This document shows, one piece after another, positions 4,072 through 62,290 of a stretch of DNA of 64,000 nt; position 1 is the first letter of the stretch, and each line of letters begins with the position of its first letter. Source of the DNA: Propionicimonas sp. (GTDB lineage: Bacteria; Actinomycetota; Actinomycetes; Propionibacteriales; Propionibacteriaceae); the NCBI RefSeq assembly GCF_029975155.1, contig NZ_JARKPQ010000051.1, positions 1 through 64,000 on the forward strand, in the 5' to 3' direction. Under the pieces are notes generated by a model, which searched no databases, was not told where the DNA came from, and saw nothing but the letters and a program-made list of their open reading frames with translations. The position numbers were made by a program, and so were the translations under genes.

Positions 4072-9576
<5,505 letters not shown>

Positions 9577-15060: not shown

Positions 15061-15218
15061 CCGTCGAGCCTGTCGAACCCCCGCCCGCCCACCGCTGGTC
15101 GAGCCCGTCCAGACCCCGGCCCCACCGCTGGTCGAGCCCGTCCAGACCCCCGGCCCCACCGCTGGTCGAGCCCGTCGAGACCCAGCCCCGCTACCGCTGG
15201 TCGAGCCTGTCGAGACCG
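15061..15218. repeat. Five tandem family B units (CTGGTCGAGCCCGTCGAGACC)
   Basis: Between the divergent surface-protein and HNH genes there are five copies of ACCGCTGGTCGAGCCCGTC followed by (G/C)AGACCCC, about 33-36 bases apart (near 15061, 15096, 15129, 15162 and 15198). This is the densest cluster of this element in the window. It is non-coding; an upstream promoter for either gene would have to lie inside or beside it. Confidence 0.8.
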
Positions 15219-53873: not shown

Positions 53874-54800
53874 TCAGGCCAGGCTGTTCGACGTCAGCCA
53901 CTCGTCGGCGACCGTGGCGGCGTCCTCCTTGTCGACGACGACCTTGGTCACCATCGCGGCGAGGGAGTCGGTGTCAAGGGCTGCCGAGACGGCGTTCAGG
54001 GCGGCGGTCACCTCCGGCGTCGCCTTCGACTTCTGGATCACCGGGATGACGTTCTGGGCACCGAAGAACTGCTTGGGGTCCTCCAGCGTGACGAAGTCGT
54101 TGGCCTTGATCGACGGGTCGGTGGTGAACAGGTTCGCCGCCTGCACCTGACCGTTCTTCAGGGCCTGCACGGTGAGCGGGCCGGCGACGTCGAGGGCCTT
54201 GAAGTCCTTGAACGTCAGGCCGTAGGTCTTCTTCAGGCCGGGGACGCCGAGCGCCCGGTTCTTCCACTCCGGCGGGCCACCGAGCACGAACTCACCGGCC
54301 ACCGGCACCAAGTCCTCGATGGTCTTCAGCGAGTACTTGTCCGCCGTCGCCCTCGTCACGGTGATGGAGTCCTTGTCCTGCGCCTTGGACGGGTCCAGAG
54401 CCGTCAGGGTGTCGGGCAGGAGAGACTTCAGCGACGCGAGGGCGGACGCCTCGTCGTGCGTGTCCGCGTCCTTGTCCAGGTACTTGGAGAAGCCGCCGGT
54501 GTACTCAGGGAACAGGTCGATCTCACCGTTCTGCAACGCGGGCACGTAGGTCTCGCGCGAGGCGATGTTCAGCTTCGTCGAGACGTTCACGCCCTTGGCC
54601 TTGAGCGCTCCGGCGTAGATGTCGGCGAGGATCTCGCTCTCCGGGAAGTTGGCCGAGCCGACCACGATCGAGACCGCGGCGCCCGACGATGCCGGCGCCG
54701 AACCGGTGGGCGCGGAGCTGGCCAGCGGATCTCCGGAGGAGCACGCCGTCAGCACCAGCGCTGTGGCTGCTGCGGCGAGGGTGACGAGGTGTTTCTTCAT
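53874..54800 (-). CDS. OpuC/ProX-type betaine-binding lipoprotein of the ABC importer
   Basis: A 308-residue lipoprotein: MKKHLVTLAAAATALVLTAC then SSGD (lipobox Cys at 20), a Ser/Ala-rich linker, and an OpuAC domain: IVVGSANFPESEILADIYAG, LQNGEIDLFPEYTGGFSKYL, GGPPEWKNRALGVPGLKKTY. The family binds quaternary amines (betaine, choline, carnitine, ergothioneine) in aromatic cages. ATG 54800 has AGGAAAAG and gives a proper signal. It is the last gene of the operon that starts with the Cys-rich leader, so a histidine-betaine type ligand is inferred. It is 29 bases after the permease stop. Confidence 0.9.
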   Translation of the reverse strand: MKKHLVTLAAAATALVLTACSSGDPLASSAPTGSAPASSGAAVSIVVGSANFPESEILADIYAGALKAKGVNVSTKLNIASRETYVPALQNGEIDLFPEYTGGFSKYLDKDADTHDEASALASLKSLLPDTLTALDPSKAQDKDSITVTRATADKYSLKTIEDLVPVAGEFVLGGPPEWKNRALGVPGLKKTYGLTFKDFKALDVAGPLTVQALKNGQVQAANLFTTDPSIKANDFVTLEDPKQFFGAQNVIPVIQKSKATPEVTAALNAVSAALDTDSLAAMVTKVVVDKEDAATVADEWLTSNSLA

Positions 54801-54829
54801 CTCTTTTCCTTCCATGGTTTCCTGCATAG

Positions 54830-55561
54830 TCAGGTCGGGTTGGTTGCGGGGACGGCGCCCACGCGCGCCGCGCGCCGGGCCGAGCGGACGGTGGAGAGCC
54901 CGGGCGAGACGACCAGGCGCTGGACCCCGGCGAACACCAGGTCCACGAGGACGGCGAGCACCGCCACGAGGAGAGCCCCGCCGGCCATCTGGCCGTAGTC
55001 GCGGTACGCCTGCCCGTCGATCAGGAACCGCCCGAGCCCGCCGAGACTGACCGAGGCGGCGAGGGTGGCGGTCGCGACGACCTGCAGCCCCGCGGAACGG
55101 AGGCCGCTGAAGATCAGCGGCAGCGCGCAGGGCACCTCCACCTTCGTCAGCACCTCCGGTGGACTCATCCCCATGCCGCGGGCGGCGTCACGCGCTCCGG
55201 GATCGACGCTCTCCACACCGGCGTAGGCGCCGGCCAGGATCGGTGGCACGGCCAGCAGCACCAGGACGAAGATCGACGGGACGAGGAACGCGATGTCACC
55301 GGCCAGCATCGGGCCGACGACGAGGACGGCGACGAACAGCAGGCCCAGCGTCGGCACGGACCGCACGCCGTTCACGAGGTTCACCACCGCGACCCTGCCC
55401 TTGCCGGTGTGCCCGATCCACAGTCCCAACGGAATCCCGATCAGGGCCGCGATCAGCAAGGTGACCGCCGAGTAGGCCAGATGTTCGGCCACCCGCACGG
55501 GGATGCCCGAGCTGCCCTGCCAGCTCTCGGGGTTGGCCAGCCATTCCCACACCAGGTTCAT
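54830..55561 (-). CDS. Betaine-type ABC transporter permease (OpuCD/OpuBB-like)
   Basis: A 243-residue permease with about six helices (AVTLLIAALIGIPLGLWIGH, VPTLGLLFVAVLVVGPMLAG, FLVPSIFVLVLLAVPPILAG) and the ATPase-contact loop DAARGMGMSPPEVLTKVEVP near residue 135. ATG 55561 overlaps the stop of the preceding permease (ATGA). The two permeases form the membrane pore of the importer. Confidence 0.9.
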   Translation of the reverse strand: MNLVWEWLANPESWQGSSGIPVRVAEHLAYSAVTLLIAALIGIPLGLWIGHTGKGRVAVVNLVNGVRSVPTLGLLFVAVLVVGPMLAGDIAFLVPSIFVLVLLAVPPILAGAYAGVESVDPGARDAARGMGMSPPEVLTKVEVPCALPLIFSGLRSAGLQVVATATLAASVSLGGLGRFLIDGQAYRDYGQMAGGALLVAVLAVLVDLVFAGVQRLVVSPGLSTVRSARRAARVGAVPATNPT

Positions 55562-56202
55562 GCCGGCCTCCCCGCACGCAACCACGGCGTGACCGCGCGG
55601 CTACCCCACAGGATGGCCAGGTCGAGCACCAGGGCGAGGGCCATGCAGGCGAGGATGCCCACCACGATCGGGTCGAGGAAGTTGCGCGCGAACCCGTCGG
55701 TGAACAGGGAGCCCAGCTGCGGGATGCCGAGCAGCGCCGCCACGGAGACGATCGACACGTTGCTCACCGCCGCCACCCGCAGGCCGGCAGCGATCACCGG
55801 CACGGCGAGCGGCAGTTCCACGCCGAAGAAGCGGCGTACCCGCCCGATGCCCATGGCCGTCGCGGCCTGCGTCACGTCGTCCGGCACCGAACCGAGACCG
55901 TCGGCGACCGTGCGCACGAGCAGGGCCACGGTGTAGATCGTCAGCGCCGCCACGACGTTCACCGGGTCGAGGATGCCGGTGCCCAGCACCAGCGGCATCA
56001 GGATGAACAGGGCCAGCGACGGGATCGTGTACAGCAGCCCGGTGCCGGCGATCAGCGGCGTGTATAGGACGCGGTGGCGACGGGCCAGCCAGCCCAGCGG
56101 GATCGCGAGCAGCAGCCCGACGACCAGCGGGATCACCGCCAGCACGGCATGGTTCAGCATCAGCTCGAACAGCTGGTCGAGGTGCCCGAGGAACCACTTC
56201 AC
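55558..56202 (-). CDS. Betaine-type ABC transporter permease (OpuCB-like)
   Basis: A 214-residue permease: HAVLAVIPLVVGLLLAIPLG, TGLLYTIPSLALFILMPLVL, VAALTIYTVALLVRTVADGL, and the coupling loop QAATAMGIGRVRRFFGVELP near 135. GTG 56202 overlaps the ATPase stop (GTGA) and its stop overlaps the next permease start. The permease pair, the CBS-tailed ATPase and the binding protein make a complete importer. Confidence 0.9.
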   Translation of the reverse strand: MKWFLGHLDQLFELMLNHAVLAVIPLVVGLLLAIPLGWLARRHRVLYTPLIAGTGLLYTIPSLALFILMPLVLGTGILDPVNVVAALTIYTVALLVRTVADGLGSVPDDVTQAATAMGIGRVRRFFGVELPLAVPVIAAGLRVAAVSNVSIVSVAALLGIPQLGSLFTDGFARNFLDPIVVGILACMALALVLDLAILWGSRAVTPWLRAGRPA

Positions 56203-57302
56203 ACCGGCACCCCCTCCGGACGGCGCTCGATCGCCGCAAGGACGTCCTGCGCGCGGACGGTGCCCACCAGGCTGCCGGTGTCATCGACGAGGACGCCGCG
56301 CCGGCTCGGCGAGGACAGGGCGGCGTCGAGGGCTGCCCGCAGCGAGCCGCCGATGCGGGCGACCGTGCCGCCGCGATGCAGGTGGTCGCGGTCGATGACG
56401 CCGGTGAGGACCTCGGGTTCGGCCCACCCCAACGGGGACCGGTCCTCATCGACCACCAGCACCCAGCGGTCCCCCGCCGCGATCCGGGCGCCCTCCGCCA
56501 CCGGAGAGCCGAGCAGCACCACCGGCTCGTCGCGCAGTGGCAGCTCGGGCGCTTCCGCGAAGGCGAGTCCGCGATAGCCGCGGTCGCGGCCGAGGAAGTC
56601 GGCGACGAAGTCGTCGTGCGGATCGGCCAGCAGCTTCGCCGGGCTGGCGAGCTGGGCGAGGACGCCGCCCACCCGCAGCACCGCCACCTGGTCGCCCAGC
56701 TTGACCGCCTCGTCGATGTCGTGGGTGACGAACACGATGGTCTTGCCGAGCTCTGCCTGCAGCCGCAGGAACTCGTCCTGCAGCTGCTCGCGCACCACGG
56801 GGTCGACGGCGCTGAACGGCTCGTCCATCAGCATCACCGGCGGGTCCGCGGCGAGCGCCCGGGCCACGCCGACCCGCTGCTGCTGGCCGCCGGAGAGCTG
56901 GTTGGGATAGCGCTTGGCGAGCACCGGGTCCAGCCCGACGCGTTCCAGGAGCTCGTGGGCGCGCGCCCGCGCCTTCGCCCGGTCCCAGCCCAGCAGCAGC
57001 GGCACGGTGGCGATGTTGTCGACGATCGTGCGGTGCGGGAACAGTCCGCCGCTCTGGATCACATACCCGATGCCGCGCCGCAGCTCGTTCGGGTCGAGGG
57101 ACGCGGTGTCGCGTCCGTCGATCTCGATCGTGCCGCTGGTGGGTTCGATCATCCGGTTGATCATCCGCAGCGACGTGGTCTTGCCGCAGCCGGACGGACC
57201 GACCAGCACGGTGGTCTTCCCCGTGGGCGCGATCAGGCTCAGCCCGCCGACGGCCGTGGTGCCGCCGGGGTAGACCTTGGTGACCTCAGTGAAGCTGATC
57301 AT
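56199..57302 (-). CDS. Betaine-type ABC transporter ATPase with CBS-like tail
   Basis: A 367-residue ATPase: Walker A TTVLVGPSGCGKTTSLRMIN, Q-loop GYVIQSGGLFPHRTIVDNIA, signature LSGGQQQRVGVARALAADPP, Walker B VMLMDEPFSAVD, H-loop VFVTHDIDEA. After residue 240 there are two CBS-like segments (PEVLTGVIDRDHLHRGGTVA, RRGVLVDDTGSLVGTVRAQD) as in OpuCA/OpuAA, which gate transport. ATG 57302 lies inside the last codons of the lyase gene (17-base overlap), so the transporter is translationally tied to the catabolic genes. Confidence 0.93.
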   Translation of the reverse strand: MISFTEVTKVYPGGTTAVGGLSLIAPTGKTTVLVGPSGCGKTTSLRMINRMIEPTSGTIEIDGRDTASLDPNELRRGIGYVIQSGGLFPHRTIVDNIATVPLLLGWDRAKARARAHELLERVGLDPVLAKRYPNQLSGGQQQRVGVARALAADPPVMLMDEPFSAVDPVVREQLQDEFLRLQAELGKTIVFVTHDIDEAVKLGDQVAVLRVGGVLAQLASPAKLLADPHDDFVADFLGRDRGYRGLAFAEAPELPLRDEPVVLLGSPVAEGARIAAGDRWVLVVDEDRSPLGWAEPEVLTGVIDRDHLHRGGTVARIGGSLRAALDAALSSPSRRGVLVDDTGSLVGTVRAQDVLAAIERRPEGVPV

Positions 57303-58998
57303 GCCTCACCACCTCCCGGTCGTGGTTCGCCACCGGCGACGGCACCGCCGGTATGCGCATCTCGGCCAGGTCGTCGCCGCGACGCTCCCGCCTCAGAGCC
57401 TCGATTACCCACTCGATCACCTCCGCAGTCACCTGGGTGCGCCCGGTGGCCTCGATGATCGCCGCGCGCAACCGCTCCACCGGCGCGCCGAGCACCGCCC
57501 GCTCCCGCAACACCGAGATCACGGTGGCCGCCAGCAGCGCCTCGACCGCGAGCAGCTGTTCGAGCACGTCCAGCACCTCCTCCGTGACCCGCACCGATGG
57601 ATAAGCCATCGATGAGTGATCCTCCACCCCGTCACCGACAGTCGTCCCGGTGAGCGAGATCGGAGCAGCGGCGTGCGTGACCCTGGCCACCAGCGCGGAG
57701 GCGGTCTGGGCGAGGATCACCGGGGTGACGTAGCCCGTGGCCGTCGTCACCGCCAGCACCTGGTCGGCCAGTGGCAGCCCCTGCCGCAGTTGCCGGACCA
57801 GCAGCGCCACCCGGCGCTCGGCGAGCTTCGCGACGTGGGCAAGCCCGATCCGCAGGGCGTCGAAGCTGACGGCGAGGTTGGTGATCGAGAAGTTGCCGTT
57901 GGAGATGAACACGCCACGCTCGACGTCCAGGAAGGGGTTGTCCGGCGCGCAGTTCAGTTCGACGGTCAGCAGCGACTCCAACTGCTCGAGCTGGTCGAAC
58001 ACCGCGCCGTGCACCTGCGGGACGGTGCGCAGCGACACCGCGTCCTGCAGCGAGGTGGCCGGACGCCGGCCCGCGGCCAGGTCTCCGCCGGCGAGGGCCG
58101 CGCGAATCCGCCGTCCACTGGCCTGCTGGCCCGCGTGCGGACGGGCGGCGAGCGCCGCGGCGTCGAACGGGGAGAGGTTCGCCCCGAGTGCCTCGAGCGT
58201 GAGCGCGGCCACCAGGTCGGCACGCTCCGCGATCAGCGTCGCCCGGCGCTGCGCGAGGGCGGCCATCGACACCGACAACGCGTTGGAGCCGACCAGGGCG
58301 AGGCTGTCCTTCGCCTCCAGCCGCAGCGGCTCCAAACCGGCTGCGGCAAGGGCTTCCGCACCCGTCACCGACTGGTCGTGGCCGGGCAGCCACGCCCGTC
58401 CGAGCCCGAGCAGCACCTGGCCGATCGCCGCCAGCTGGGACAGGTCGCCCGCGCCGACCGAGCCCTGGTCGGGGATCACCGGGATCACGTCGTGGCGGAG
58501 CAGCGCGAGCAGCCCGTCGAACAGGGTCGTGGACGCGCCGGACGCGCCGCTGGCGAGCGTGCTCAACCGCGCCAGCAGTACCGCCCTGCCCTCGATCCGG
58601 GACAGCGGCGCCCCGATCGCCGCGGCGTGGCTCACGATGACGTAACGCTGGAAGTCCCCGATAAGTTCCGCCGGGACCTCGCTGTTGCGCAGCGGACCCA
58701 GCCCACGGTTCAGTCCGTAGGTGGGGACGCCGGTGGCCAGAGCGTCCTCGACGTGGGCTCGCGCGCCGGCGAGACGAGTGTCGATCGCGGCCCTGTCCAC
58801 GGTGACGATCGCGTGGCCGATGGCGACCTCGGCGATGTCCTGCGGGGTGAGCCGGGTGCCGATCTCGACCACCCGACGGTCGGCGTGCAGCACTCCGCCG
58901 GTGGTGGGGCACGCCTGCGGCGCCGACGTTTCGGGCTCCAGCGGGGACAGCGGACCCGCGGCCACTCCGACCGTGTCGAGGGGGAACAGCGAGGTCAT
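57286..58998 (-). CDS. Histidine/aromatic ammonia-lyase family enzyme lacking the MIO serine (ergothionase candidate)
   Basis: A 570-residue HAL/PAL-family protein. Recognised blocks: GVPTYGLNRGLGPLRNSEVP near residue 95, GASGASTTLFDGLLALLRHD, and ERRVALLVRQLRQGLPLADQ. The cofactor loop reads PDQGSVGAGDLSQLAAIG where HAL has GSVGASGDLAPL: the Ser of the Ala-Ser-Gly triad is deleted, so MIO cannot form in the known way. LVGSNALSVS replaces the LINGTQ block, and AVSLRTVPQVHGA lacks the usual YSLR Tyr. Ergothionase, which removes trimethylamine from ergothioneine without MIO, belongs to this superfamily. Next to a DUF917 desulfurase and a betaine importer that is my preferred reading; histidine deamination is unlikely. 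ATG 58998 overlaps the DUF917 stop (ATGA). Confidence 0.82.
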   Translation of the reverse strand: MTSLFPLDTVGVAAGPLSPLEPETSAPQACPTTGGVLHADRRVVEIGTRLTPQDIAEVAIGHAIVTVDRAAIDTRLAGARAHVEDALATGVPTYGLNRGLGPLRNSEVPAELIGDFQRYVIVSHAAAIGAPLSRIEGRAVLLARLSTLASGASGASTTLFDGLLALLRHDVIPVIPDQGSVGAGDLSQLAAIGQVLLGLGRAWLPGHDQSVTGAEALAAAGLEPLRLEAKDSLALVGSNALSVSMAALAQRRATLIAERADLVAALTLEALGANLSPFDAAALAARPHAGQQASGRRIRAALAGGDLAAGRRPATSLQDAVSLRTVPQVHGAVFDQLEQLESLLTVELNCAPDNPFLDVERGVFISNGNFSITNLAVSFDALRIGLAHVAKLAERRVALLVRQLRQGLPLADQVLAVTTATGYVTPVILAQTASALVARVTHAAAPISLTGTTVGDGVEDHSSMAYPSVRVTEEVLDVLEQLLAVEALLAATVISVLRERAVLGAPVERLRAAIIEATGRTQVTAEVIEWVIEALRRERRGDDLAEMRIPAVPSPVANHDREVVRHDQLH

Positions 58999-60233
58999 CG
59001 GGACGTCCTTCGGCTGCTCCGCGAACCGCTGGTTGAGCCTGTCGAAACCGGCCTCCGCGAACCGCTGGTTGAGCCTGTCGAAACCGGCCGGGGGGTCTCG
59101 ACAAGCTCGACCAGCGGTGAAGGCTCGACCGTCGAGACGTACGCGGCCGTACCGGGACGCAGGGCCGGGTCGAGGTGGTCGAGGAAGCCGATGCCCATGA
59201 TCTGCTCGCACTCGGCAAGGCCGGTGCGGTCGATGCTGGAACTGGAGACAGGGAGCGTCCCGGCCTTCGCCACGAGCAGCACGACGTCCTGGCCGCCCCG
59301 GCCGGCATCCTTGACCGCAAGGCCCTCACCGGTCGCCCTGTCGAGGATCACGATCGTGTCGGGATAGGTCGCCACCCGCCCGGACGGCCCGTCCACGGCC
59401 ATGTACTCGTTGAGGTACGGGACGGTGTGGTCGCCGATCCGGAAGGTGCCGTGGTCCCAGCCGCCGACGGTCCGCGTCCGCTTCCCGATCCGCAGCGGGC
59501 CGGCGTCGACCACGTCCGCGCCCAGCCGGTTCCGGACGGCCTCGACGGCGGGGTCGCCCGGCCCGGCTGCGACCAGGTCGGCGCCGAGGTCGAGGGCCAG
59601 CGAGATCGAGCCATGGGCGCCGTTGGCCTTCACCCAGTCGAGCTCCACCGGGTTGCGGGCGGACGCGATGAAGCCACCCGTCCGCACCGAGATGTCCCGC
59701 AGCACGTTGTCGACGGTGTTCAGACTCCCCTTGTTGATGCTGAGGAAGTGCCCGTGCAGGGCCCGGTTGCCCCCGCTGACCACCTGGATCGACTCGTAGC
59801 CGGCCCGCTCCCCCAAGCCGAGCCCGCCGAGCTTGCCGGTCGGATGCGCGCGGACGTCGCCCGCGGTGTCGAGCACCTTCACGCCCAGCACGGACGACTG
59901 GATCCAGCCGTTCAGCGTGGTCGAGTAGCCGTTCTGGGCGGTCATCACCGCGCCGATCGGGACTCCGGCCACCGTGATCAGCTCCTGCAGCGCGTGCACG
60001 TAGTCGACCGGACGGATCTCCCAGTCCTTCGCCGCGGGAGCCCCGATGGCGGTGACCGTGGCCACCCAGATGTCGTCGGGCAGCTCGTCCACACCGGCCA
60101 GCACGGGACGCTCGAGGCTCGTCGCGAGGGAGCCCATCAGCTCGCCGTGGTGTTTCCAGCCGCCACCGCCGCAGGCCAGCACGCCTCCGCCGAGCACGGC
60201 GTGACGGGCGTCGTCGGGCGTGAGTTCCCTCAT
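58995..60233 (-). CDS. DUF917 / S-methyl thiohydantoin desulfurase family protein
   Basis: A 412-residue DUF917 protein (now linked by name to S-methyl thiohydantoin desulfurase). Seen: ARHAVLGGGVLACGGGGWKH, VTAIGAPAAKDW, GWIQSSVLGVKVLDTAGDVR, and DTIVILDRATGEGLAVKDAG. The family removes the sulfur from a thiohydantoin formed during S-methyl-ergothioneine breakdown, as I recall; related members act in hydantoin use. The last 45 or so residues (VELVETPRPVSTGSTSGSRR) are encoded by three family B repeats, yet ATGA coupling to the lyase is kept. ATG 60233 overlaps the hydratase stop. Confidence 0.85.
   Translation of the reverse strand: MRELTPDDARHAVLGGGVLACGGGGWKHHGELMGSLATSLERPVLAGVDELPDDIWVATVTAIGAPAAKDWEIRPVDYVHALQELITVAGVPIGAVMTAQNGYSTTLNGWIQSSVLGVKVLDTAGDVRAHPTGKLGGLGLGERAGYESIQVVSGGNRALHGHFLSINKGSLNTVDNVLRDISVRTGGFIASARNPVELDWVKANGAHGSISLALDLGADLVAAGPGDPAVEAVRNRLGADVVDAGPLRIGKRTRTVGGWDHGTFRIGDHTVPYLNEYMAVDGPSGRVATYPDTIVILDRATGEGLAVKDAGRGGQDVVLLVAKAGTLPVSSSSIDRTGLAECEQIMGIGFLDHLDPALRPGTAAYVSTVEPSPLVELVETPRPVSTGSTSGSRRPVSTGSTSGSRSSRRTSR
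59029..59118. repeat. Three family B repeats inside the DUF917 coding end
   Basis: CTGGTTGAGCCTGTCGAAAC (59030-59049 and 59064-59083) and TCTCGACAAGCTCGACCAGC (59096-59115) lie in the last coding part of the DUF917 gene. The frame passes through all of them without a stop, so the protein carries a repeat-encoded tail. Confidence 0.75.
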
Positions 60234-62056
60234 CGGTTCTCCTGTGGTTCGGTGGTCGAGCCCCCCACGCCGCTGATCGAGCCCGTCGAGATCCCGGTCT
60301 CGACGGGCTCGGCCGGCGGTTGGGTGGCCAGCCAGGTCAGGGGTGCGTCGCCGGTCTCACCGGCGTCGGCCACGCTCGTGGCAGCTTCGGGGTAGCCGGC
60401 GAGGGCGTGTCGCAGGACGCCGAGGCCGGTGTCGGCATCCAGCGCTCGACGTAGCCGGACGGCGGTCCCCGGGCGTCCGTCCGCGACGATCGAGACGCCC
60501 GCGGACTGCATCCAGCCCGCGTAGCCGCCCCCGCCGGAGTGGATGGCCACGAGGTCGGCGCCGGTGGCCGCGAGGAGCAGGCCGTCCAGCAGCGGGAAGT
60601 CGGTACTGCCGTCCGAGCCGTCGCGCATGCCCTCGGTGCCGATCCGCGGATGGGTCATCGCCGCCGAGTCGAGGTGGTCACGGCTGAACAACACGGGCGC
60701 TCCGAGAGTGCCGTCGGCGACCAGGTCGTTGACGGCGACCGCGAAGGCCGAGCGCTCGCCGTGGCCCAGCCAGCAGGACCGCGCGGGCAGCCCCTGTTGC
60801 GGGACGTGCTCGCGGGCGAGGGCGATCCAGCGGGCGACCTCCGGCCGGTTCGGGAACAGGCTCGCCGCGAGGTCGTCGAGGAGCCGCTGGTCATCGGTCG
60901 AGCCGGACAGCGCCACCCAGCGGAACGGTCCGATCCCGCGGGCGAACAGCGGCCGCAGATAGGCCTCCATGAAGCCCGGGATCCGGTTCACCTCCGCCGC
61001 GGCCGCCTCGCCGAGGTGCTCGACCGCCTGGACGCGGAGGTTGTTGCCGTTCTCGAACACCACCGCCCCGGCGTCGGCGAGCGCGAGCATGGCCCGCACC
61101 TGGGCGGCGATGGACGTCCGGGCGTCCCGTTCGACCCGCTCGGGGTCGCGTTCACGCAGGTCGTGCCAGGTGGCGAGGTCGTAGCCCTGCGGCAGGTAGC
61201 CGTAGCGGGCGTCGTGGGCGGCGGTCTGGTCGGTGACGATGTCCGGGACGCGGCCGAGTCGGGCGACCTCGGCGAACACGTCGGCCGCGTTGCCGACGAG
61301 GCCGATCGCTGGCGCCCCACCAGTGACCAGCCCGGCGTCGAGGGTAGCCAGGGCCGCCTCCAGGTCCGTGACGACCAGGTCCAGGCCGCCCGCGGCGCGC
61401 AGCCGTTCGGCCTTGGCCGCGTCCGCCTCGACGGTGAGCGAGGCCAGTCCGAGCATCCGGGCGCTGATCGGCTGGGAGGAGCCCATCCCGCCCATGCCGG
61501 AGGTGAGCACCCAGCGTCCGGCGAGTGCGTCCGCCTCCGCGCCGGAGGCCGCGCCGAAGTGCCTGCGGGCGATGGTTCCGAGGAGCTCGTAGGTGCCGGC
61601 GAGCACGCCCTGGCGTCCGATGTACTGCCAGGCGCCGGCGGTGAGGCCACCCCACATGGTCTGCCCGGCGGCCGCACGCTCGTAGAACCGCTCGGGACTC
61701 GACCAGCGGCCCACCGTGTTGTTCACCGCGGAGACCACCAGCGGAGCGTGCTCCCCGGTCTCGATGACGCCCACGGGCGTGCCCGACTGCAGGACGAGGG
61801 TCCGGCTCTCGTCCAGCGCGAGCAGTGCCCGAGCGATCGCCCGGGCGGACTGCCAGTCGCGCGCGGCCTTCCCGAGCGAGGCGTAGACGATCAGTTCGGC
61901 CGGATTCTCGCCCACCTCGAGGACGTTCTCGAACATGCGCAGCAGCGCCTCCGCCCGCCAGTTGCGGGCGCGCAGGACGGACCCGCGCTGGGCGCGGAAG
62001 ACGGTGCCGGGACCGGCGAGGACGGGACTGGTCGCCCCGGGATTCGGGCTGGAAAC
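60230..62056 (-). CDS. Urocanase-family hydratase with altered substrate motifs (thiourocanate hydratase candidate); non-canonical start
   Basis: A urocanase-like protein of about 608 residues. The fold blocks are clear: ELIVYASLGKAARDWQSARA, TSGMGGMGSSQPISARMLG, DQTAAHDARYGYLPQGYDL, RSCWLGHGERSAFAVAVNDL, HLDSAAMTHPR, EGMRDGSDGSTDFPLLDG. Differences from true HutU: GLGGMGGAQP is GMGGMGSSQP, and the HHGGGVGxGxSQHAG block is HSGGGGYAGWMQSAG, suggesting another substrate such as thiourocanate. The family N-terminus (FRAQRGSVLRARNWRAEALL) lies upstream of the first ATG (61936) but no ATG, GTG or TTG occurs in frame there; a GGAGG at 62062-62066 points to a GTT at 62054-62056. It ends with a repeat-derived tail. 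Confidence 0.78.
   Translation of the reverse strand, partial: VSSPNPGATSPVLAGPGTVFRAQRGSVLRARNWRAEALLRMFENVLEVGENPAELIVYASLGKAARDWQSARAIARALLALDESRTLVLQSGTPVGVIETGEHAPLVVSAVNNTVGRWSSPERFYERAAAGQTMWGGLTAGAWQYIGRQGVLAGTYELLGTIARRHFGAASGAEADALAGRWVLTSGMGGMGSSQPISARMLGLASLTVEADAAKAERLRAAGGLDLVVTDLEAALATLDAGLVTGGAPAIGLVGNAADVFAEVARLGRVPDIVTDQTAAHDARYGYLPQGYDLATWHDLRERDPERVERDARTSIAAQVRAMLALADAGAVVFENGNNLRVQAVEHLGEAAAAEVNRIPGFMEAYLRPLFARGIGPFRWVALSGSTDDQRLLDDLAASLFPNRPEVARWIALAREHVPQQGLPARSCWLGHGERSAFAVAVNDLVADGTLGAPVLFSRDHLDSAAMTHPRIGTEGMRDGSDGSTDFPLLDGLLLAATGADLVAIHSGGGGYAGWMQSAGVSIVADGRPGTAVRLRRALDADTGLGVLRHALAGYPEAATSVADAGETGDAPLTWLATQPPAEPVETGISTGSISGVGGSTTEPQENR
60252..60312. repeat. Family B repeats inside the hydratase coding end
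   Basis: GCTGATCGAGCCCGTCGAGA and TCTCGACGGGCTCGGCCGGC face each other near 60272-60317. They encode the last residues of the hydratase (AEPVETGISTGSISGVGGST). The stop still overlaps the next start codon. Confidence 0.65.
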
Positions 62057-62078
62057 GGGAGCCTCCGGTTGAGAGCGA

Positions 62079-62116
62079 CCGTCACGGCGCGGAACGATCC
62101 GGCCGGTTCGTGACGG
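62079..62116 (-). promoter_or_regulatory. Stem between Cys leader and hydratase (attenuator candidate)
   Basis: CCGTCACG (62079-62086) and CGTGACGG (62109-62116) form an 8-bp stem with a 22-base loop that contains GGCCGG. On the mRNA it lies between the stop of the Cys-rich peptide and the GGAGG of the hydratase. No U-run follows. It could switch between structures depending on whether a ribosome stalls on the Cys codons. Confidence 0.5.
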
Positions 62117-62159
62117 TGTCGGGCGATGGAGCGGGCTGGCCTCTCGGGCCGGCTTGGGT

Positions 62160-62249
62160 TCAGGAGTGTCGGGTCAGCAAACAGGTGCGACAGTGGGTAC
62201 GGCAACAACACATGGCCGAGCAGATGCTCGGGCAACAACGGTTGCGCAC
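62160..62249 (-). CDS. Cysteine-rich 29-codon leader peptide
   Basis: GTG 62249 has a strong site (GGAGG at 62256-62260, six-base spacing). The peptide is MRNRCCPSICSAMCCCRTHC then RTCLLTRHS: eight of 29 residues are Cys, with TGT-TGC and TGT-TGT-TGC runs. It lies 100 bases before the first gene of the operon that (by inference) takes sulfur from ergothioneine-type compounds. Poly-Cys leader ORFs act as cysteine-responsive attenuators in mycobacteria; here a ribosome slowed by low Cys-tRNA would change the downstream RNA structure. It has its own promoter and is not part of ispH. Confidence 0.7.
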   Translation of the reverse strand: MRNRCCPSICSAMCCCRTHCRTCLLTRHS

Positions 62250-62260
62250 GTCCCACCTCC

Positions 62261-62279
62261 TTGAAAGTCCATCTTTCAA
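62261..62279. promoter_or_regulatory. Inverted repeat TTGAAAG-N5-CTTTCAA at the operon 5' end
   Basis: A perfect 7-bp inverted repeat that, given the -10 at 62291-62296, spans about +4 to +22 of the mRNA and abuts the ribosome site of the Cys-rich leader. It could be an operator blocking transcription or a 5' hairpin limiting translation of the leader. Confidence 0.5.
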
Positions 62280-62290
62280 CCAGGGCCGTC

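Follow-up and report, generated by a model that had tools for sequence, protein, structure and literature searches.

What does an operon do that places an OpuC-type ABC importer behind a urocanase-like hydratase, a DUF917 protein and a HAL-superfamily lyase, and how far does it take its substrate? The operon lies near the end of a 64,000-nucleotide stretch of Propionicimonas sp. (NZ_JARKPQ010000051.1, positions 1 to 64,000; hereafter the window), which is contig C84 of a 5.0 Mb genome bin (G000; 404 contigs, completeness 100, contamination 8.31%). We consider it fairly probable that these genes take up and desulfurise ergothioneine, stopping at hydantoin-5-propionate and passing the sulfide to cysteine synthesis. 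The pathway is a known one; judged from sequence, the window has a conserved form of it, with a truncated layout and a modified importer.

All seven genes lie on the minus strand in the order hydratase, DUF917 protein, lyase, ATPase, permease, permease and binding lipoprotein, and Pfam verified the family of each. The first-pass annotation had described seven co-directional genes with overlaps of 4, 4, 17, 4 and 4 bases and one 29-base gap, and we recovered the same junctions, whose lengths assume starts at ATG 58998 for the lyase, 55561 for the second permease and 54800 for the binding protein. Its operon edge at 62283 matches no gene boundary. We found all seven genes in identical order in a second genome of the same genus (G147, locus L030/L036) at 73-93% identity, with the ATPase 93% identical. 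Hence, since the order is kept in G147, the arrangement is not due to chance.

In the route that we propose, the OpuC-type importer would bring in ergothioneine or a close relative, the lyase, which lacks the 4-methylideneimidazole-5-one (MIO) group, would eliminate trimethylamine to give thiourocanate, and the hydratase would turn thiourocanate into thiohydantoin-propionate. The DUF917 enzyme would then hydrolyse the sulfur off as sulfide, leaving hydantoin-5-propionate; for all three enzymes the assignment draws on family and signature residues. Cysteine synthesis would take up the sulfide, and what is left of the substrate would either leave the cell or be processed by some unrelated enzyme. 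A Cys-rich leader open reading frame (ORF) may couple expression to cysteine supply in this strain.

Relatives were gathered by scanning named genomes with nine desulfurases, and the best 80 of 118 were kept. The 27 best-ranked of these 80 loci (L036-L062) are all actinobacterial, and relatives in Paenibacillus, Burkholderia and Serratia carry the same enzyme trio. Within the family of the window, close desulfurase relatives (E <1e-90) occur in 9 of 198 genomes, the window included, and all nine carriers have a hydratase and an MIO-less lyase nearby; at E 0.001 there are desulfurase matches in 22 of the 198, none above the curated cut-off. Plasmid carriage of close relatives was not seen (19 plasmid records match, 0 at at least 60% identity). 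That such a system is not usually described for actinobacteria, as had been suggested, stands only in part: the pathway itself is known, and our literature search found no paper on a truncated actinobacterial version, a search outside which most subscription papers lay, so that absence from print is not claimed.

We found that the lyase has the marks of an MIO-less enzyme, as had been predicted. Its loop, GSVG-AGDL, is one residue shorter than GSLGCSGDL in the HutH of the same genome, with the MIO serine gone, and QDAYSLR of that HutH reads QDAVSLR, with valine for the catalytic tyrosine. The solved Treponema ergothionase (6s7j) has both features (SIGEGDIT, QDPLSFR). On the hutH model the lyase reaches 325 bits (cut-off 539) and has neither the A/C-S-G MIO triad nor the catalytic tyrosine of HutH; no ergothionase model is among its NCBIfam matches. 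A lyase without MIO is expected to require a better leaving group than ammonia. Ergothionase works without MIO and releases trimethylamine and thiourocanic acid, according to PMC13405746. From these features we infer that the lyase is an ergothionase, that is, a trimethylamine lyase.

The loci of the desulfurase relatives hold 63 HAL ORFs in 60 loci, and in 59 of the 63 neither the MIO residue nor the tyrosine is present. The remaining four are two pieces of a split gene (L076), a fragment without data (L058) and one canonical MIO-type protein (L107). A quick tree search with a midpoint root covered 41 rows (34 of the 63 HAL ORFs, the window lyase and six HutH), leaving out near-duplicates, gene pieces, the odd HAL-like ORF of L061 and 6s7j. 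The window lyase groups with 24 MIO-less lyases, including those of Burkholderia, Serratia and Paenibacillus, apart from HutH (Shimodaira-Hasegawa-like approximate likelihood ratio test, SH-aLRT, 99). A position inside the HutH clade, which the first-pass annotation had named as the outcome that would speak against it, did not occur, and the lyase lies in this 25-row MIO-less group. On the HutH side of the tree there is another MIO-less group (Pseudopropionibacterium, Rothia, Pseudonocardiaceae, Nocardia), and with two such groups, loss of the MIO residue may have happened twice. As a separate observation, the MIO-type protein of L107 (L107:8279-9844, a Burkholderiaceae metagenome-assembled genome) retains the tyrosine about 3 kb from a hydratase-linked desulfurase that is above its cut-off, and it is the only clear exception among the 63.

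The hydratase ranks the thiourocanate hydratase model NF058530 first (662 bits, cut-off 930) and the S-methyl thiourocanate hydratase model NF058531 behind it (559 bits, cut-off 880); both scores are below cut-off, and both exceed that of the urocanase model hutU (TIGR01228). Among solved structures it is closest to 7ned (587 bits; next 1x87, 476 bits), which is listed as 'Urocanate hydratase' and which we take to be a thiourocanate hydratase. The printed start of 7ned (~36 residues) and its glycine loop are identical to those of the hydratase in the Paenibacillus cluster L070, which is above the thiourocanate hydratase cut-off at 1023 bits. The glycine-rich loop of the window hydratase reads IHSGGGGYAGWMQSAG against IHHGGGVGIGRSIHAG in the HutU of its own genome, with the motif HSGGGGYAGWMQSAG in place of HHGGG. 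An HSGGGGY-type pattern that we made from linked proteins is present in the window hydratase and in 68 of the 80 related loci; some of the other 12 hold a partial hydratase or none in the stretch, and others have a variant loop that the pattern misses. Used as a query against the linked hydratases of the 80 loci (>250 bits), the window hydratase scores above the HutU of its genome in 74 of 74 cases. The margin is at least 100 bits in nearly all of the actinobacterial loci L036-L062 (the exception noted is L061, 566 vs 462) and shrinks to 2 bits in some Proteobacteria (L073). Both the model ranking and these scores sustain the proposal of a thiourocanate-type hydratase.

The frame of the hydratase gene is open from 62173, and the first in-frame ATG, GTG or TTG is at 61936; solved urocanases align from about 61993 onwards, before that codon. 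By eye, a candidate start is GTT at 62056, 5 nt past a GGAGG, and the hydratase of G147 apparently starts at GTG.

For the DUF917 protein the thiohydantoin desulfurase model NF058529 ranks first, and the desulfurase assignment made at the outset holds. The S-methyl counterpart NF058532 gives 214 bits (cut-off 450). The first reading of the sequence had also admitted S-methyl ergothioneine as substrate, broken down by an S-methyl thiourocanate hydratase and an S-methyl thiohydantoin desulfurase, to whose models both enzymes do match (559 and 214 bits). We regard this as improbable and rejected it on model ranking: on the non-methyl models the scores of the two enzymes are higher by about 100 bits, and the non-methyl-first ranking recurs in the relatives scanned from Serinibacter, Paenibacillus and Serratia.

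We found that the operon lacks the last two enzymes of ergothioneine breakdown, which other clusters carry. In Paenibacillus L070, ErtD (hydantoin-5-propionate amidohydrolase, 784 bits) and ErtE (N-carbamyl-glutamate amidohydrolase, 583 bits) adjoin the hydratase, desulfurase and lyase, and the hydratase, the desulfurase, ErtD and ErtE are all above their NCBIfam cut-offs. The Serinibacter counterparts of ErtD and ErtE rank the same models top, under the cut-offs (396 of 600; 519 of 520). Both genes are nearby in 18 of the 27 loci L036-L062 and neither is in the other 9. Whole-genome searches with the Serinibacter queries covered 18 genomes, five with the full cluster (Serinibacter included) and 13 with the short one (the window genome included). 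Strong matches to ErtD (at least 531 bits) and ErtE (at least 569 bits) appeared in 5/5 full-cluster genomes. No dedicated orthologue of either was found in 13/13 short-cluster actinobacterial genomes, where the best ErtD-like and ErtE-like proteins reach 157 and 156 bits, the values of the window genome itself. The first-pass annotation had put the hydantoin-opening enzymes outside the window; this proved right, and in the whole genome bin, too, no dedicated orthologue was found. Since dedicated ErtD and ErtE are absent, the pathway probably ends at hydantoin-5-propionate, truncated after desulfurisation.

Three side observations concern the neighbours of these clusters. An IclR-type gene lies between amidohydrolase and hydratase in 15/18 full-cluster actinobacterial loci (L040-L045, L049, L051-L058) and in 0/9 short-cluster loci of L036-L062, with its domain verified by Pfam in L049 only. 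The full cluster of Ancrocorticia (L051:11366-12760 and 4313-4957) is flanked by a UbiD-family decarboxylase and by a flavoprotein that, by eye, looks UbiX-type. A UbiX-like ORF, also by eye, lies upstream in L040.

The importer is related to EgtU. Run against solved structures, a profile built from nine linked binding proteins of actinobacteria matched EgtUC best (1.6e-41, 145.5 bits), by a small margin over nicotine/acetylcholine-sensor and ProX proteins (1.4e-39, 139 bits, to 5.6e-38). According to PMC9732360, the EgtU cage consists of F293, Y341, Y419, Y443 and N339; K242, T296 and R379 sit at the carboxylate, and G244 does not vary. That paper sites Y341, Y443, T275 and G244 at the cage, by the imidazole or in the water network, and reports that G244F lowers ergothioneine binding about 100-fold. 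In the nine proteins the cage equivalents are Y/F (F293), D (Y341), F/Y (Y419), Q (Y443) and D/N (N339), and the carboxylate equivalents are A/G (K242), G/A/N (T296) and R (R379), with F at G244. Arg stands at T275, by the imidazole, Ala stands at Y337, and E375 and R379 are kept. Asp at 341, Gln at 443, Arg at 275 and Phe at 244 are invariant over the nine. By its residues, the importer is EgtU-related and not EgtU, with a ligand suggested by operon context.

The linkage of the importer to the catabolic genes, which had been proposed for the window, is kept in G147. An OpuC ATPase and two permeases are linked in 14/80 loci, 12 of the 14 being actinobacterial and 10 having the binding protein in the stretch. 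The actinobacterial ones are Arsenicicoccus, Leucobacter, four Pseudoclavibacter, two Rothia, Ancrocorticia, Serinibacter, Corynebacterium otitidis and G147 (L036). Among the nine carriers in the window's family, only G147 and the window have an OpuC importer in the stretch read. Elsewhere, in a Pseudopropionibacterium-type locus (L026:1-3650) with no OpuC importer, the hydratase is preceded by a Liv-type permease and a URO-D-family protein: another system for uptake and perhaps a step of methyl transfer. Two ABC ATPases also lie upstream of the hydratase in the four related loci L023, L024, L025 and L027.

Which need would such an operon serve? PF01507, the CysH/CysD family, is present in 2/13 short-cluster genomes (the window genome and C. 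otitidis) vs 15/23 full-cluster genomes (Fisher p 0.006), the latter a set of mixed phyla with the proteobacterial ones left out. Within the window's family, it is in 1/9 carriers vs 107/189 other genomes (p 0.012). Since 11/13 short-cluster genomes lack CysH/CysD, sulfur harvesting is a likely purpose; the association is supportive, not proof. PF10017, which we take to be the EgtD family, is above cut-off in 1/18 genomes (Amycolatopsis), and the model is not specific, with matches in the E. coli control too. Hence, with no above-cut-off EgtD-family gene in 17/18 genomes, ergothioneine would come from outside, and carriers other than Amycolatopsis appear to be consumers rather than makers of it.

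We found a small ORF at 62249-62160, just upstream of the hydratase and absent from the first-pass annotation, with 8 Cys in 29 codons (MRNRCCPSICSAMCCCRTHCRTCLLTRHS) and with AAGGAGG preceding its GTG; an ispH-like gene, by eye from the ORF reading, lies beyond it. No other of the 12 small ORFs (10-50 aa) preceded by GGAGG in the window exceeds 2 Cys. With the GGAGG condition dropped, one unrelated ORF (at 1666) of 1119 also has 8 Cys. Four cysH/cysD-type loci (two in the window genome and two overlapping ones in G206; ~3.5 kb each) have no Cys-rich small ORF. Leader ORFs with cysteine codons have been proposed before cys genes in actinobacteria (PMC1262725, PMC4633059).

Several results, taken up in this and the next three paragraphs, count against the proposed route. 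In pairwise comparison, the lyase is closer to HutH structures (7tqr, 213 bits) than to 6s7j (146 bits); the hydratase is above the hutU cut-off (537 bits; cut-off 375); and the DUF917 protein is below the cut-off of NF058529 (312 bits; cut-off 440). By the curated rule alone, the hydratase would be named HutU, since it passes only the hutU cut-off. That cut-off does not discriminate, because Paenibacillus and Serratia proteins above the thiourocanate cut-off likewise pass it (708 and 684 bits). The Serinibacter hydratase, with linked ErtD and ErtE, is also under the NF058530 cut-off (685 bits). We place the window hydratase and desulfurase, by these scores, in a divergent actinobacterial branch. 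The HutH-leaning score of the lyase is weak evidence because the lyase of the Paenibacillus ert cluster likewise ranks hutH-type models best, below cut-off. BLAST surveys may under-count ergothionases, as such lyases score HutH-like and are revealed by the missing MIO residue and by their operon partners. A diverged hut paralogue acting on histidine or urocanate, to which the hutU score and the sub-cut-off hutH matches would point, is most improbable: the hydratase loop is unlike that of the resident HutU, a DUF917 desulfurase is present, and a separate hutH/hutU pair lies on contig C176. We rejected this candidate on the loss of the MIO serine and tyrosine and the separate hut locus.

The stop at hydantoin-5-propionate is challenged by amidohydrolases elsewhere in the window genome. 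Four of the five listed ErtD-like proteins were scanned, and all rank other families first: three on contig C404 are dihydroorotase/D-hydantoinase-like, and one on C280 is an allantoinase above cut-off. Two of the C404 proteins rank best in D-hydantoinase (TIGR02033; 317 and 304 bits, cut-off 393), below cut-off, so full breakdown is possible. An M20-family enzyme beside hutH/hutU is an allantoate amidohydrolase, above cut-off. Complete catabolism to glutamate, with a non-orthologous hydantoinase and carbamoylase from elsewhere in the genome taking the last two steps, would use such proteins, and we judge it rather unlikely: the C404 and M20 candidates rank other families above ErtD and ErtE, none of them is within the window, and at E 1e-10 an ErtE-like match is missing from 10/13 short-cluster genomes. 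The C404 proteins stand, as an aside, in a run of three tandem dihydroorotase/D-hydantoinase-type amidohydrolases (C404:41167-45976, L152), of which only one is above a cut-off (subfamily-level pyrC).

The binding protein does not have the EgtU ligand-residue set, most cage residues being replaced, and the EgtU-type ergothioneine importer of the first-pass annotation is not supported as stated; EgtU is the nearest solved relative. The ligand may be another one, such as a thiohistidine with a primary amine, ergothioneine in oxidised form or some general solute, with ergothioneine entering by another way or not being the substrate. The invariant Asp, Gln, Arg and Phe at the EgtU positions Y341, Y443, T275 and G244 favour this view. 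We think it unlikely, with EgtUC still the nearest solved relative, albeit by its small margin, and with the importer genes in one operon with an MIO-less lyase.

The sulfur-harvesting purpose meets objections of its own. Both PF01507 tests treat relatives as independent and ignore shared ancestry, and eight full-cluster actinobacteria also lack PF01507. The window genome is a counter-example, having CysH/CysD-family genes (the bin contamination given above applies to it), and sulfur from the operon may be unneeded here. The Cys leader, from the sequences of the relatives, is not conserved. Upstream of the hydratase, one of 34 loci (L053, 57 aa, chance-like) has a candidate leader that combines a ribosome-binding site with CC and three or more Cys. 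Any small ORF with CC is found in 6/18 loci (L038, L049, L050, L051, L053, L059), the most leader-like being that of Propioniciclava flava (L038), of the window's family, which ends CCCR and has no ribosome-binding site seen. Scans of the leader region found no terminator, no promoter and no attenuator structure; its fold is unremarkable (z -0.86), and four Rfam matches are all far under the gathering score. A conserved Cys attenuator was rejected, the leader being absent from relatives.

A wider idea can be put forward only tentatively: that the truncated pathway arose more than once in actinobacteria as a sulfur-harvesting module, with a new class of OpuC-type importer and, in the window, a gating leader. 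On the lyase tree, the truncated pathway requires three label changes. Hosts that do not make ergothioneine, mostly without sulfate-reduction genes, would import it through a pocket in which Arg, Asp and Glu replace the betaine cage; trimethylamine and sulfide would be stripped off, hydantoin-5-propionate would be discarded, and the cysteine-codon leader would gate expression. One suggestion for the role of ergothioneine breakdown is that it helps the cell to acquire nitrogen (PMC13405746). If the idea is true, the pairing of the sulfur-releasing half with an importer, mainly in hosts without CysH/CysD, would turn sulfur supply into a function open to testing and would add new names to the consumers of ergothioneine, a dietary antioxidant that is widespread.

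The window also carries a repetitive extragenic palindromic (REP)-like repeat, GTTTCGACAGGCTCAACCAGCGG, in five copies (up to 3 mismatches; none in shuffles) at 15159-15216 and 59026-59117. Three copies fall in the desulfurase gene, at its 3' end, where they extend the C-terminus (about the last 40 codons), and the 4-base overlap of this gene with the lyase gene would depend on the repeat insertion. By eye, a diverged copy appears at the 3' end of the hydratase gene. The features of the locus are collected below.

Features of the predicted ergothioneine operon, in window coordinates
Feature	Position	Strand	Basis
Cys-rich small ORF, 29 codons, 8 Cys; candidate cysteine-sensing leader peptide	62160..62249	-	AAGGAGG ribosome-binding site
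Thiourocanate-hydratase-like urocanase	60230..62056 (candidate start)	-	NF058530 662 bits; 7ned 587 bits; motif HSGGGGYAGWMQSAG
DUF917 thiohydantoin-desulfurase-like protein, 3' end lengthened by REP-like repeats	58995..60233	-	NF058529 312 bits; PF06032/PF20906
HAL-superfamily lyase, no MIO serine or catalytic tyrosine; putative ergothionase	57286..58998	-	PF00221 394 bits
OpuC/ProV-type ABC importer ATPase	56199..57302	-	PF00005; best NCBIfam proV 293 bits (cut-off 327)
OpuC-type permease 1	55558..56202	-	PF00528; conserved linkage
OpuC-type permease 2	54830..55561	-	PF00528; conserved linkage
OpuC-type substrate-binding lipoprotein, EgtU-related, different conserved pocket	53874..54800	-	PF04069; EgtUC best solved relative

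How does this operon compare with known systems? Like the actinobacterial cys leader peptides (PMC1262725 and PMC4633059), it has a small Cys-rich ORF before a putative sulfur operon; unlike in those, the Cys codons are spread over the ORF and not only near the stop, the ORF is not conserved, and no terminator was found. The S-methyl ergothioneine route (NF058531, NF058532) uses the same families, and the window proteins score about 100 bits lower on its models than on the non-methyl ones. With EgtU the operon shares an importer of OpuC type, whose closest solved relative is EgtUC and which keeps E375 and R379; in contrast, K242, G244, T275, Y337, Y341 and Y443 are replaced, and the binding domain, which is part of EgtU (residues 233-506; PMC9732360), is a separate lipoprotein in the window operon.

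The Treponema denticola ergothionase 6s7j and Burkholderia-type lyases have the one-residue deletion in the MIO loop and the tyrosine loss of the window lyase, although the window lyase gives only 146 bits with 6s7j and scores higher with HutH structures. Ergothioneine catabolism in five steps uses ergothionase, thiourocanate hydratase, thiohydantoin desulfurase, ErtD and ErtE; a five-step pathway was reportedly set out by Beliaeva et al. in 2021. The ert cluster of Paenibacillus L070, like the window, has the first three enzymes adjacent in the order hydratase, desulfurase, lyase. The window differs in that its genome yielded no ErtD or ErtE orthologue and its hydratase and desulfurase are below the NCBIfam cut-offs; its operon has an OpuC-type importer, and its lyase belongs to another branch of the MIO-less group.

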